From assembly GCF_019711375.1 (NCBI RefSeq), contig NZ_CP081295.1, forward strand, positions 1,364,001-1,428,000: a stretch of DNA of 64,000 bases, in the 5' to 3' direction. Source of the stretch: Qipengyuania aurantiaca. Lineage in GTDB: Bacteria > Pseudomonadota > Alphaproteobacteria > Sphingomonadales > Sphingomonadaceae. How positions within the stretch are numbered: position 1 is the stretch's first letter; every line of letters begins with the position of its first letter. Below the pieces are notes generated by a model that saw only the letters and a list, made by a program, of their open reading frames with translations, was not told where the DNA came from and made no database searches. A program made the translations under genes and the position numbers. Below, in pieces: positions 35,872 to 41,719 of this stretch.

Positions 35872-36783
35872 TCAGTAGAGCGATCCGGCGTTCACCACCG
35901 GATGCGCGTCCTTTTCGCCGCACAGCACGACCATCAGGTTGGAGACCATGGCGGCGCGGCGTTCGTCGTCCATCTCGACGATACCGTCCTGCGACAGCTT
36001 GGTCAGCGCGTCCTCGACCATGCCGACGGCGCCCAGCACGATCTTGGCGCGCGCCGCGATGATGGCATCGGCCTGCTGGCGCTTGAGCATGGCACTGGCG
36101 ATTTCGCTCGCATAGGCAAGGTGGGTGAGACCGGCCTCGTCGACCACGACACCGGCCGCCTTCAGGCGGTCGTTGAGTTCCTCGAGCAGCTCGCGATTGA
36201 CCACGTCGGCGCTGCCGCGGAGTGTCACTTCCTCGCCTTCGAAATCGTCATAGGGATGGCGCGAACCCACCGTCCGCAAGCCCGCCTCGATCTGGATGTT
36301 CACGAACTCCTTGTAATCGTCGACGTCGAAGCTCGCCTGCGCCGTGTCGCGCACGCGCCAGACCACGTTGCAGGCGATCTCTATCGGGTTGCCGCGCAGG
36401 TCGTTGATCTTCACGCGGTCGGAATGGATATTGTGCGCGCGGGCGCTGATCTTGTTCTTGCCCATCCACGGCCAGACCCAGCGCAGGCCCTCGGTACGCT
36501 CCGACCCGCGATATTCGCCGAACAGCGTGATCACCGCGGCCTGGTTCGGCTGGATCATGAAGAAACCGGAGGCGAGGATCAGCACGCCGATAAGCGACAC
36601 CACGAGCATTCCGACGAAGCCGAGTTTCATCGCCTTGGTCGCGCCATCGCCGGGCGCCATACCGGGGAGGATGAAGGCGAGCGCCGCCACCACGATCACG
36701 AGGACAAGCAGCATGACATAGCCGCTGTAGCTGGTCGCCGCGCTTTCGCGGCTTGTCTTCATTCCGGTCAGCTCAACAGACAT
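35872..36783 (-). CDS. SPFH (band 7/prohibitin-like) membrane protein
   Basis: A 303-residue protein. Two membrane segments at about 24-44 and 54-76 precede an SPFH domain with [32 protein letters not shown] and [18 protein letters not shown], then the long helix [21 protein letters not shown] proteins form oligomeric rings or microdomains in the inner membrane and scaffold proteases. Neither a NfeD nor a FtsH-associated partner (HflC) is adjacent; instead it heads a cluster with an RHH and a zinc-finger gene. Confidence 0.9.
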
Positions 36784-36806
36784 TGATCGATCCCCTGTAA
36801 TATAAT

Positions 36807-36818
36807 TATGATATCATA
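36807..36818. promoter_or_regulatory. perfect 12-bp palindrome, candidate operator
   Basis: TATGATATCATA at 36807-36818 is self-complementary and lies in an AT-rich patch (36798-36825) within a GC-rich divergent gap. It is 24 bp upstream of the SPFH start. On the minus strand a TTGACG at 36839-36844 precedes it; on the plus strand a perfect TATAAT lies at 36801-36806. It could regulate SPFH, the VIT gene or both. The palindrome is certain, the role is inference. Confidence 0.55.
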
Positions 36819-36919
36819 CCTATATCGCAGGGCGCTACCGTCAAGCGGACTCGGCTGCGGCTTGTCGGGTCGTGGGTCCGGCCCTAGGTTCAAGTGCTTG
36901 ATTGAAAAAGGTGTTGCGC

Positions 36920-38392
36920 ATGGGAAATCGGATGTACTGGCTGGCAGGAGTGGCACTTTTGGCCGCGCAACCGGCCCTGTCGCAGCAGCAGGCCAATCCG
37001 CAGATCACGGCCTATCAGGGCGGCGTTGATGCGGGCGAAGAGGCCGACACCAGCCGAATCCGGATCACCGCGATGGACATGGCGGTGCGCCTTGCAGGGC
37101 CGACGGCGCAGGTCACGCTCGAAATGGAGCTGGCGACCGACAACCGGCAGGACGACGAAGCGCGCCTGTCGCTGCTCCTGCCCGAAGGTGCGGTGGTGAC
37201 GGGCTACGCGCTGTCGGTCGACGGACGGATGATCCCCGGCTCGCTGCTCGAACAGACGCGGGCGCGCGAAGTCTATGAGGACGAGGTGCGCGGGCGGATC
37301 GATCCCGGTCTCGCCGAAGTTACCGGAAACCGGTTCGACACGCGCATTTACCCCCTCACCAAGGGCAAGCCGCGGCGCATCCGCCTCAGCTTCGTAACCG
37401 CGCTCGATCCCGATCGCGGACTCCACCTGCCACTGCTCGCCACGCAGGACGTCGGGCTGGCGACCGTGCGGATCGAGGCGGCCGGCTATGCGCAGCCGCC
37501 CGAGGCACGGTTCGACGGCGACAGCTTGCGCTTCGAGCGGCAGGGCGACGGCTACACGGCGCGCATCGAACGGCAGGGCTTCCGCCTCGACGAGGGGTTC
37601 TACATCGCCGCCGGACGCCATGCCGGTGCGGTGCTGGCCGTGCACGAGACGGGCGAGGCGTTTCTCGCGTTGACGCTGGACGACTTGCCCGAGGGAAGAG
37701 CGATCCAGCCGGAAGGGCGCTTGCGAATTTACTGGGACCGCTCGCTCTCGCGCCGCGACGATTTGCTCGAACAGGAAATCGCGATGATCGAAGCGCTGGT
37801 CGAGCGGACCCGCCCCTCTGCCATCGATATCGTCAGCTTCGCCTCGGACGAGCCGGTCGTCAACTCGCTCACCGACACACGCGCGCTGCGCGGGGTGCTT
37901 GAGGCGCAGACCTATCGCGGCGCGACCTCCCTTGCCGGTCTGACCGATCTCGAACTGGAGCAAGCGAGCCAGTGCCTCTTGTTCACCGATGGTGAGGCCA
38001 CGGTCGATTTCGCGACCGCATTTACGCCCGACTGCCCGACCGCGCTGGTATCTTCGTCGCGCAGCGCAGACAGCGCGCGGCTCGATGCGCTTGCCGCAGC
38101 GTCTGGCGGAGAGGTGGTTCGGCTGACGGCTGAGAATGCGGACCAGCTGGCCGCGCGGCTATCGCAGGGGATGGCTTCGGTCACGGCCCTGCGCGACGAC
38201 GAGGGCGAAGAGGTATCTTTCCGCCAGCTCGCTGCCTCCGCCGGGGAACTGGCGCTGGTCGCTCCTGCCGGAGCTTCAGCGTTCTGGGATGTGACCTATC
38301 GCAGCGGCGACGGAGCAAGCGCCACGCGCCGCATCGGCCGGCCACGCGGTGATGCCATTGCCTCGGACGGTCCGGGCGCGCTGTGGGCATAG
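36920..38392 (+). CDS. VIT-VWA protein, N-terminal part (frame ended by in-frame TAG)
   Basis: 490 residues: a signal peptide (WLAGVALLAAQPALSQQQ), a VIT (vault/inter-alpha-trypsin) domain at about 35-165 with EQTRAREVYEDEVRGRIDPG and IYPLTKGKPRRIRL, then a VWA-like domain whose MIDAS motif is DRSLS (about 275). Both domains fold on proteins exported to the periplasm or surface. The frame ends GALWA-TAG, but the same frame continues without a shift into 38414-39808, so this is the first part of one gene. ATG 36920 follows AAGG; a TTG at 36902 and ATG at 36932 are alternatives. Confidence 0.82.
   Translation: MGNRMYWLAGVALLAAQPALSQQQANPQITAYQGGVDAGEEADTSRIRITAMDMAVRLAGPTAQVTLEMELATDNRQDDEARLSLLLPEGAVVTGYALSVDGRMIPGSLLEQTRAREVYEDEVRGRIDPGLAEVTGNRFDTRIYPLTKGKPRRIRLSFVTALDPDRGLHLPLLATQDVGLATVRIEAAGYAQPPEARFDGDSLRFERQGDGYTARIERQGFRLDEGFYIAAGRHAGAVLAVHETGEAFLALTLDDLPEGRAIQPEGRLRIYWDRSLSRRDDLLEQEIAMIEALVERTRPSAIDIVSFASDEPVVNSLTDTRALRGVLEAQTYRGATSLAGLTDLELEQASQCLLFTDGEATVDFATAFTPDCPTALVSSSRSADSARLDALAAASGGEVVRLTAENADQLAARLSQGMASVTALRDDEGEEVSFRQLAASAGELALVAPAGASAFWDVTYRSGDGASATRRIGRPRGDAIASDGPGALWA
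38390..38392 (+). other. in-frame amber codon splitting the VIT-VWA gene
   Basis: The sequence GCA TAG CAA CAG GTC reads A-stop-Q-Q-V. Changing the first base of TAG to C restores GALWAQQQVAALAMRPELH, which joins the two halves smoothly with no missing or repeated residues. A single C-to-T change (or read error) explains it. No strong ribosome site precedes the downstream ATG at 38414. Confidence 0.85.
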
Positions 38393-38413
38393 CAACAGGT
38401 CGCCGCCCTCGCC

Positions 38414-39808
38414 ATGCGGCCCGAATTGCACGAGCAGAAGCTCGCCATGGCACGCCGTTACAAGGTCGCGGGTTCGGGGCTGGCCTTTCTCGTACTGGAA
38501 AGCCCCGAGCAATATATCGAGGCCGAGATCGCTGCGCCGGATGCGTTCGGGGCCGAGTGGCAGGCCGAGTATCGCCAGCAGCTCGACGCGCATGTCGAGG
38601 ACCAGAAGCAGCGCGAGGCTGGTCATCGCAACGAGGTTCGCGAGCGGTGGGAAGATCGCGTGGACTGGTGGACTACGGAATTCTTCGCACGCGAGACGCC
38701 TCCGCCAGCCAGGCCTCAGGATGCCGCTGATGAGGCGCAAGGAGGGGTGATCATCGTCACCGGAGCGCGCAGACAAAGCGACAGCTCCTTCGACACGCCG
38801 GCCGCCGTGACGGTGGAAGCGGCCGAGGAGATGCCTGCCGAGCGGCAGAGCAGGCTCACTATGGCGGGCGAGCTGTCCGACCAGCCCTATTTCACCCTGC
38901 TCGACCAAGCGCAGGACCCGCTTGCCGAACTGGACCGGCTGGAAGCGGAGTATGGCGCGCTCCCCGCTTTCTATCTCGATGCGGCCGAGTGTTTCCGCCT
39001 GAAAGGCGACACGCACACCGCGGCGGCGCTGAGCCTGTCGGCGCTCGACACGCCCGATGCCAATGACGAGACGGCGCAGATCGTCGCTTTCCGGCTCGAA
39101 CGCGATGGGCAGTACGACCGCGCCATTGCGCTGCTCGAGCGTTACGCGGCCCGCGCGCCACATCGCCCGCAGCCCAAGCGCCAGCTGGCGCTGGCCTTGG
39201 CGGCGCGCGGGCAGGCGACTGCGGGGGAGGCCGGTCTGGCCGATCTCGAACGTGCCTTCGCCCTGCTCACCGAAGTGGCTCTCAAGCCTTTCGAAGGCGC
39301 CTATGACGGGATCGAGGTCATTGCCCTGATGGAGGCCAACGCGCTCATCCCGCTGATCGAGGAGCGCGGTGGCAGCTGGGTTCTCGACGAAGATCTGGTG
39401 GCGCTGCTCGACACCGACATGCGCGTGGTGATCGAATGGACCGCGCCCGACGCCGATATCGACCTGTGGGTGGACGAGCCCAATGGCGAGCGGGTGATGT
39501 ACAGCTACCGGCTGAGCAGCGGCGGCGGGACGATCTCGAACGACATAACGCAAGGCTTCGGGCCGGAGGAATATCTCGACCGGGTGGCACAGGAAGGCAC
39601 GTACGAAGTGCGCGCGAACGGCTTCCGGGCGGACCGCATCAATCCCAACGGCGCGGGCCATGTGCTGGTGCGGCTGTGGCGCGGCTTCGCGAGGCGTTCG
39701 GCCGAGGCGGCGCTGGTCGATGTCGACGTGACGTTCCAGCGCGGGCCGGATCGCAACCAGAGCGGCAACACGCGGCCTGTCGCCATGATCGAGTTCGGCA
39801 AGGAGTAG
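38414..39808 (+). CDS. VIT-VWA protein, C-terminal part (same frame after the TAG)
   Basis: 464 residues in the same frame as the preceding part. It contains the helical MRPELHEQKLAMARRYKV stretch, a linker with VIIVTGARRQ, a TPR-like helical region (about 155-275) and a DUF2135-type beta domain with VVIEWTAPDADIDLWVDEPNGE (split by a few residues) near 345. On its own it has no signal peptide and begins in mid-domain, so a separately translated product would stay cytoplasmic and probably be useless. It should be read as the 3' portion of the split gene. Confidence 0.8.
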   Translation: MRPELHEQKLAMARRYKVAGSGLAFLVLESPEQYIEAEIAAPDAFGAEWQAEYRQQLDAHVEDQKQREAGHRNEVRERWEDRVDWWTTEFFARETPPPARPQDAADEAQGGVIIVTGARRQSDSSFDTPAAVTVEAAEEMPAERQSRLTMAGELSDQPYFTLLDQAQDPLAELDRLEAEYGALPAFYLDAAECFRLKGDTHTAAALSLSALDTPDANDETAQIVAFRLERDGQYDRAIALLERYAARAPHRPQPKRQLALALAARGQATAGEAGLADLERAFALLTEVALKPFEGAYDGIEVIALMEANALIPLIEERGGSWVLDEDLVALLDTDMRVVIEWTAPDADIDLWVDEPNGERVMYSYRLSSGGGTISNDITQGFGPEEYLDRVAQEGTYEVRANGFRADRINPNGAGHVLVRLWRGFARRSAEAALVDVDVTFQRGPDRNQSGNTRPVAMIEFGKE

Positions 39809-39826: not shown

Positions 39827-41602
39827 TCAGTTCTCCGCGATGCAGCGCAGGAAGCGTTTCCCATAGGCTTCGAGCTTCTTGCCGCCGACCCCACCGACGC
39901 GGCCCATCGCTTCCATGCTGGCAGGGCGGGTCTCGGCCATTTCGCGCAGGGTGCTGTCATGGAAGATGACATAGGGCGGGACCTGCGCCTCGCTGGCGAG
40001 GTCTCGGCGCAGTTCGCGCAAGGCTTCGAACAGCGGATCGCCGACGGGGTTGGCCTCGTCGCTGCCGCGCCGGCCCCGACGCTGGCGTTTGGGCGGGACG
40101 ACGATGGCGACCTCGCGTTCGCCTTTGAGGATTTCGCGCGCGCTACCGCCCAATGCCAGCCCGCCGTGCTCGGTCGGCACGAGATCGCCGCGTGCCTGCA
40201 GCGCCCGGCCGAGCGGCTGGAGCAGGCGCGCCTCCTCGCCCTCGACGATGCCGTAGACGCTCAGCCGGTCATGGCCGCGCTGGCGCACGCGGTCGTCCTC
40301 GGTGCCGGTGAGGACCTTCTGCAAGTGGCCCATGCCGAAGCTCTGGCCGGTGCGATAGACAGCCGAAAGGAGCTTGCGCGCCAGTTCGGTGACTTCGGTG
40401 ACAGCGGGCGCGTCGAGGCAATTGTCGCAATTGCCGCAGGTTTCCGGCGGGTCCTCGCCGAAATGGCGCAGCAGCACGGCGCGGCGGCATTGCGGCGTTT
40501 CGACCAAACCGGCCAGCGCATCCAGCCGGGCGCGCTCGGCGCTGCGGCGGTCCTCGTCCACTTCGGCCAGCCGCGACCGGGCCGTGGCGAAATCGCCCGC
40601 GCCCCAGTACATCGTGGCGGCGGAAGGATCGCCGTCCCGGCCTGCGCGGCCCGTCTCCTGGTAATAAGCCTCGATCGACTTGGGCACGCCGACATGGGCG
40701 ACGAAGCGCACATCGGGCTTGTCGATGCCCATGCCGAAAGCCACCGTTGCCACGATCACCATGTCCTCGCTCGCGACGAAGGCGGCCTGGTTGGCGGCGC
40801 GCGTCTCGGGGTCGAGACCGGCGTGATAGGGCAGCACTTTCCGACCCGTCTCGCGCGCCAGCTTATCGGCGAGGTCCTCCACTTTGCGGCGGGTCTGGGC
40901 GTAAACGATGCCGGGCCCCGGGCGCTCCGCCATGAGGTTCGCAATCTGGCGCACCGGGTTGTCGCGGTGGCGGATGGCGTAGCGGATGTTGGGCCGGTCG
41001 AAGCCCGCCAGCACCAGCCCGTCCTCCGGAATGCCCAGCTGCGCGAGCACATCGCCCCTCGTCTGCCGGTCCGCTGTCGCGGTCAGCGCGAGGCGTGGGA
41101 CCTCGGGAAAGGCGTCCATCAGCGGGCGCAGCATCCGGTAGTCGGGCCGGAAATCGTGGCCCCATTCCGACACGCAATGCGCTTCGTCCACGGCGAACAG
41201 CGCAATCGGCGAGGAGGCGAGGAAATCGCGGAAAGCCGGCTGGCTCGCGCGTTCCGGCGCGACGTAAAGCAGGTCGAGTTCGCCCGCACGATAGGCGTCC
41301 TGCGTCTCGCGCCAGTCGGCATCGGCGCTGGTCAGGGTGGCGGCGCGAATGCCGTTTGCCCGCGCGCTCCTGAGCTGGTCGTGCATCAGCGCGATCAGCG
41401 GACTGATGACGATGCAGCATCCTTGCAACATGGTGGCCGGAAGCTGGTAGGTCAGCGACTTGCCCGCCCCCGTCGGCATCACGGCAAGGCTCGAATGCCC
41501 CGCCAGCGTGCGCTCGATCACCTTGGCCTGCCGCCCGCGGAAATCGTCGAAGCCGAAGGTGGCGCGCAGGGCCTCGCGGGCGTGATCCAGACTGGCGACC
41601 AT
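39827..41602 (-). CDS. recQ: ATP-dependent DNA helicase RecQ
   Basis: A 591-residue 3'-5' helicase. The helicase motifs are VMPTGAGKSLTYQLPA (I), DEAHCVSEWGHDFRPDY (II, DEAH with the aromatic-rich loop), LTATADRQTR (III) and ATVAFGMGIDKPDVRFVAH (V); the zinc domain cysteines are in CRRAVLLRHFGED and CGNCDNC. An HRDC domain ends the protein (SMEAMGRVGGVGGKKLEAYG). The start ATG 41602 is preferred to 41620. It converges with the split VIT gene. Confidence 0.95.
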   Translation of the reverse strand: MVASLDHAREALRATFGFDDFRGRQAKVIERTLAGHSSLAVMPTGAGKSLTYQLPATMLQGCCIVISPLIALMHDQLRSARANGIRAATLTSADADWRETQDAYRAGELDLLYVAPERASQPAFRDFLASSPIALFAVDEAHCVSEWGHDFRPDYRMLRPLMDAFPEVPRLALTATADRQTRGDVLAQLGIPEDGLVLAGFDRPNIRYAIRHRDNPVRQIANLMAERPGPGIVYAQTRRKVEDLADKLARETGRKVLPYHAGLDPETRAANQAAFVASEDMVIVATVAFGMGIDKPDVRFVAHVGVPKSIEAYYQETGRAGRDGDPSAATMYWGAGDFATARSRLAEVDEDRRSAERARLDALAGLVETPQCRRAVLLRHFGEDPPETCGNCDNCLDAPAVTEVTELARKLLSAVYRTGQSFGMGHLQKVLTGTEDDRVRQRGHDRLSVYGIVEGEEARLLQPLGRALQARGDLVPTEHGGLALGGSAREILKGEREVAIVVPPKRQRRGRRGSDEANPVGDPLFEALRELRRDLASEAQVPPYVIFHDSTLREMAETRPASMEAMGRVGGVGGKKLEAYGKRFLRCIAEN

Positions 41603-41719
41603 TCGCCCCTGTTGCCACACGGCGCGCTGCGCGCAACCGCTGGCTTCGCATTTTCCCTTGGCGAAGTGGCGAACAAGCGATTAACCACCCCGCCACAAAG
41701 TTTTTTCAAGGAGACATCC

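Follow-up and report, generated by a model that had tools for sequence, protein, structure and literature searches.

A probable recent nonsense interruption of an exported VIT-VWA protein gene, with an independent break in the sister copy

Young pseudogenes and nonsense-interrupted bacterial genes are reportedly covered by a review. In the part available to us, a survey of nonsense-interrupted genes makes the case that in-frame stops in genes of low dN/dS are a common feature of bacteria, and that many of these stops last for a short time while purifying selection continues, with read-through as a possibility (PMC7918605). As far as that part goes, the genes it describes resemble the one considered here in having a single in-frame stop within an otherwise intact and recently selected frame, with a sense codon at that position in relatives, and its worked example is likewise an alternation of TAG and CAG; they differ in that here the two copies found in the genus stop at different positions, which suggests no maintained site (PMC7918605). 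The gene in question lies in a window (the whole stretch of DNA that was analysed, 64,000 nucleotides long) and would encode an exported VIT-VWA protein, similar to the inter-alpha-trypsin heavy chains (ITIH), with a C-terminal extension of TPR-like and beta structure. To our knowledge, ITIH chains possess neither a proline-rich hinge nor TPR-like helices nor a C-terminal beta domain. The window protein differs from VIT-VWA proteins of the ITIH heavy-chain type (PDB 6fpy and 6fpz; 9c4f by sequence) in being bacterial and in having all of these elements. Closer in kind are VIT domain-containing proteins of Sphingomonadales (P0014, P0015, P0018, P0042 and P0109), which are of similar length and align at 42-46% identity over 98-100% of the query, but which are intact single chains whereas the window's copy is interrupted. 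Among the titles and abstract openings of the literature on the VIT domain with von Willebrand factor or on DUF2135, no paper on this bacterial family was found.

The interrupted frame occupies positions 36920-39808 of the plus strand, as does every feature of the gene given below, and in its 962 codons there is exactly one internal stop, a TAG at codon 491 (38390-38392), as the initial annotation had claimed. The first open stretch (36920..38389, 490 codons) starts at an ATG preceded by a Shine-Dalgarno-like AAGGTG, and its product has a signal-peptide-like N-terminus by eye, followed by the VIT domain and a VWA fold. The second (38393..39805, 471 codons) continues in the same frame to a terminal TAG at codon 963 (39806..39808); mapped from a relative's structure model, it comprises the rest of the ITIH-like module, a long helix, the proline-rich hinge, TPR-like helices and the C-terminal beta domain. 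Both halves look coding. GC3 is 0.80 in the first and 0.81 in the second, compared with 0.77-0.86 in seven neighbouring genes, and the codon-usage scores of 0.25 and 0.27 are slightly below the 0.29-0.47 of those neighbours; the two other frames of the second half score -0.10 and -0.54. Single-chain relatives align with both halves. The first in-frame ATG after the stop (38414..38416) has at best a 4-base Shine-Dalgarno-like word before it and is a poor candidate for a restart, and no export signal could be seen by eye in the second half. The expectations of normal codon use throughout and of a downstream half without a good ribosome site are borne out by these observations, and those of one signal peptide for the whole chain and of no export signal in the downstream half agree with inspection by eye. 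Antisense to 36920-39805 runs one frame with only 2 stops, and there are antisense ORFs of 357 and 461 aa; open antisense frames over the gene are most likely an effect of high G+C content.

Membership in the VIT-VWA (ITIH-like) group rests on a VIT domain above its curated cut-off and on a VWA fold taken from a relative's model. The pair of domains had been proposed from the sequence alone, and the VIT domain (PF08487) is clear at 58.8 bits against a cut-off of 26.5 (residues 50-158, about 37067-37393). The VWA domain, in contrast, is not matched in the window protein by any Pfam VWA model at E up to 1, but follows the VIT domain as a fold in the structure model of an intact relative, L006, from which it was mapped by hand onto the window at about 37700-38176. 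Residues 42-556 of that model match inter-alpha-inhibitor heavy chain 1. The C-terminal beta domain, mapped from the same model, spans about 39419-39805, and the label "DUF2135-type" given to it is one we would use with caution: DUF2135 (PF09906) is matched neither in the window (E up to 1) nor in L006 (E up to 10), the one match being in a distant relative, P0063 (28 bits, cut-off 22). TPR matches in the window protein fall below cut-off. The first half reaches only 20.3 bits against the marine sortase target protein model (TIGR03788, cut-off 551.65), and matches to three other NCBIfam models with a VIT region (TIGR04286, TIGR04477 and TIGR02921) are all far below their cut-offs. The window's stop corresponds to residue 492 of L006, within the ITIH-like part and inside a helix (485-499) in a confident region of the model (pLDDT over 90); it sits two residues after an invariant tryptophan, in a conserved motif.

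The most informative comparison is with Erythrobacter sp. SD-21 (L005), whose locus is collinear over five neighbours at 94-98% protein identity, and whose VIT gene is 83-86% identical; genome G032 of the genome searches was taken to be this strain. At window codon 491 SD-21 has a glutamine codon, and it carries a lone TAG of its own at codon 112, a position at which the window in turn encodes glutamine. The SD-21 stop would leave a stub of 111 residues. In an uncultured Altererythrobacter MAG (L006, identical to G099 over all 1006 residues), the gene is a single open frame flanked by the same neighbours. The comparison of the codon in relatives that the initial annotation had proposed was extended to 139 aligned database proteins of more than 850 residues, from which shorter proteins, P0070 and the window's own record were left out; these are called reading frames, and the set is biased toward uninterrupted ones. 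At the window's stop the relatives have A (96), S (25), Q (3), V, R and others, and at the SD-21 stop it holds Q in 80 of 139. None of the aligned relatives ends at the window's stop position, and two separate proteins with this same break were seen in none of the relatives examined. The two stops found in the genus are independent of each other. The proline-rich hinge (window about 38690-38830) varies in length, that of SD-21 being 33 residues longer.

On the direct observations of the stop, of the sense codon in relatives, of the second, independent stop and of flanks without the gene elsewhere, we consider it quite probable that the window holds a real and recent nonsense interruption of a dispensable gene for an exported protein, of which the sister copy was broken independently. 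A recent change would have created the TAG from a sense codon, which in the sister strain encodes glutamine. Translation would end at codon 491, giving a chain without the end of the VIT-VWA module and without the whole C-terminal half, and any restart further on would yield a second half that stays unexported. The product is then presumably non-functional and its loss tolerated. A recent nonsense mutation was among the options raised at the outset, and it is the one favoured by the glutamine codon in the sister, the single-chain relatives and the intact remainder of the frame. An in-frame stop where relatives have a sense codon, in a frame otherwise intact, is also what is expected of a recently nonsense-interrupted gene. 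It looks like an ordinary gene being lost and not a new way of reading the code, and the locus should be annotated as one interrupted gene instead of two proteins. The interpretation offered by the initial annotation is, as a whole, partly supported.

Selection on the gene bears on the age of the breaks. A comparison of the window with SD-21 gives a dN/dS of 0.18 across 960 codons (dN 0.068, dS 0.37; NG86); the value is 0.17 in codons 113-490, 0.20 in codons 492-962, and 0.04-0.15 in five neighbouring genes. The VIT gene is less constrained than its neighbours, yet its dN/dS is well below 1, and both breaks therefore look recent. With L006 as outgroup, 26 of the 118 amino-acid differences are derived in the window, 29 in SD-21 and 63 are unclear; after the window's stop the corresponding numbers are 12, 11 and 28, with no window excess. 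Ten differences fall at columns at least 80% conserved in the 139 relatives (3 window-specific, 6 SD-21-specific, 1 at which both depart). Among the window-specific ones, 1 lies before the stop and 2 after, one of them being a cysteine at residue 691 (38990-38992) where tryptophan is conserved in 92% of the 139 relatives; this change may mark the onset of decay downstream of the stop. By a first-order estimate, a neutral branch of such length would be expected to carry about 15 nonsense changes, and since no second stop is seen, unconstrained time should be less than about 20% of each branch. A frame clean apart from its TAG, a low dN/dS and the lack of any excess of changes after the stop count against a loss, although a dN/dS of 0.20 and the absence of such an excess are expected if the stop is very young. 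The alternatives are that the breaks arose recently or that the product retains some slight importance. Finding both copies at so early a stage would be a mild coincidence, except if broken copies do not survive for long before they are deleted. A mutation cluster was considered for three G-C to A-T differences that fall within 7 bp around the stop, and was rejected, 8-bp stretches with at least 3 differences being common (159 of 1673).

Within the genus the gene was found in 2 of 60 genomes searched (the window's and G032), in both cases interrupted and at different places, and in four further genus genomes the matches were short and confined to 26-63 residues of the proline-rich part. Outside the genus, all 10 near-full-length copies are without an in-frame stop: six are among 119 genomes (G099, G183, G138, G190, G122 and G109), and four more come from a set of 147 (G278, G273, G241 and G208), in which G122 recurs. 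In G241 and in G208 the match falls into two pieces, both within a single open frame. These searches scored the best 5-6 candidates per genome, and some copies may be missed; the G164 copy, cut by a contig end, was left out of the count. Short matches were dropped in seven genomes of the 119-genome set (G091, G093, G094, G106, G151, G160 and G198) and in seven of the 147-genome set (G031, G151, G160, G214, G247, G258 and G284), at E values of 1e-7 to 1e-3, most of them confined to the proline-rich part or to the VIT region. The G160 match (residues 615-717), which contains 2 TAG codons, is such a proline-rich match and not a copy of the gene. With breaks distributed at random, the contrast of 10 of 10 intact copies outside with 0 of 2 inside the genus would arise by chance 1 time in 66, by a post hoc hand calculation. 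It is mildly unusual that both genus copies are broken independently while other members are without the gene, and a dispensable gene, absent from most members searched and broken separately in its two remaining copies, would be consistent with this distribution.

Leaky amber read-through would account for the clean frame in another way: the TAG would be read, probably as glutamine by a near-cognate tRNA, to yield a little full-length protein, so that dose is lowered and not abolished. We judge this unlikely. It draws on the otherwise intact frame, on the low dN/dS in both halves, on a sister copy in the same state with one lone TAG, and on the argument, in the available part of the survey cited above, that low-dN/dS in-frame stops are common in bacteria (PMC7918605). 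Against this, among the tRNA genes seen (44 for the window's genome and 43 for SD-21) ARAGORN found none with a CUA anticodon. The tRNA-Tyr gene of the window's genome, which the gene order of SD-21 places in a stretch beyond the sequence covered, is not among the 44; in neither genome was a tRNA-Ile or a tRNA-Ala with anticodon TGC listed. A suppressor tRNA, which the initial annotation had suggested looking for, is on this count rejected. The gene for release factor 1, prfA, is present in both genomes, and TAG ends 2 of 8 neighbouring genes checked and therefore works as a normal stop here. The stop sites of the two strains differ, no particular site being kept, and the SD-21 stop leaves 111 residues. 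Nor do two TAG codons point to an amber-specific process: TAG makes up 0.64-0.69 of single-change new stops in this sequence, by the rates tried, and is the likeliest new stop, so that both would be TAG by chance in about 41-48% of cases (the square of that share), which makes this a weak coincidence; an origin of both from glutamine CAG is less expected, at 6-22% (the square of 0.24-0.47). Programmed read-through or reassignment at codon 491 is unlikely because the stop is not conserved (Q in SD-21; A, S, V, R, Q and others in the 139 relatives), and neither a CUA tRNA nor a missing release factor 1 was seen. The idea that amber read-through provides a regulated short and long form is not supported, the stop lying inside a folded module at an unconserved site, with no CUA tRNA among those seen and with an SD-21 stub of 111 residues. 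It is very unlikely, in our estimate, that low-level amber read-through keeps the dose of a costly envelope protein very low, in which case any glutamine position would serve and the site would be unconserved. If read-through were nonetheless true, the gene would offer a testable case of a stop codon lowering dose. The window's gene fits the brief persistence described in the available part of the survey (PMC7918605), and none of the present results demonstrates read-through.

The remaining alternatives concern the sequence itself and the shortened product. A single-base read or assembly error, with the gene intact in the living strain, seems quite unlikely; it retains some standing because the first-half search found no second sequence of the species (of 28 matches, none exceeded 46% apart from the window's own record, at 100%), and the frame is otherwise intact. 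The search for a close intact copy in 5.8 billion proteins gave, among the 120 of 186 matches listed, none above 48% identity along most of the chain, and one at 56% but over 30% of the chain; both searches scored roughly 8000 candidates sharing most words. An error is less needed now that an independent break in the sister makes real loss plausible (that stop being likewise unverified by reads), and the genome is assembled as one contig of 2.83 Mb with 99.99% completeness. Assembly errors are, moreover, more often indels. It also appears highly improbable that the truncated first product is functional as an exported VIT-VWA protein without its C-terminal half, the stop being tolerated or even a useful shortening. 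Both VIT and VWA do precede the stop, but the stop interrupts a helix of the ITIH-like module next to an invariant motif, 139 of the 241 columns conserved at 80% or more belong to the C-terminal half, and the SD-21 stop cannot yield such a product. A split into two working proteins was rejected: no aligned relative ends there, the break would cut a helix in two, and no export signal is visible in the second half.

Recent nonsense interruption of a dispensable gene also accords with the locus in other genus members. The gene is flanked by two minus-strand genes, which from their sequence we take to be a band-7-type gene on the left (35872..36783) and a RecQ-type helicase gene on the right (39827..41620); both are conserved flanks. 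RecQ is present in 30 of 30 genus genomes searched. In 20 of the 29 others the band-7 gene directly adjoins recQ, with about 55-77 bp between aligned ends, and in 9 it was not found beside recQ within the examined stretch, with a weak, incomplete match at a greater distance in one of these. The recQ-locus stretches of the 29 genomes contain no match to either half of the VIT gene. Because the same two genes flank it in L006, the VIT gene is most simply read as an old one that would have been lost in most of the genus, although its transfer together with the flanks is also conceivable. The locus would then offer a small natural series of gene loss, from intact in a relative to interrupted to gone. 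Upstream of the band-7 gene, at window 36795-36830, lies an AT-rich block with the palindrome ATGATATCAT, which is common to L060, L061, L062 and L085, genus members without the VIT gene, and which looks like a promoter or operator of the band-7 gene.
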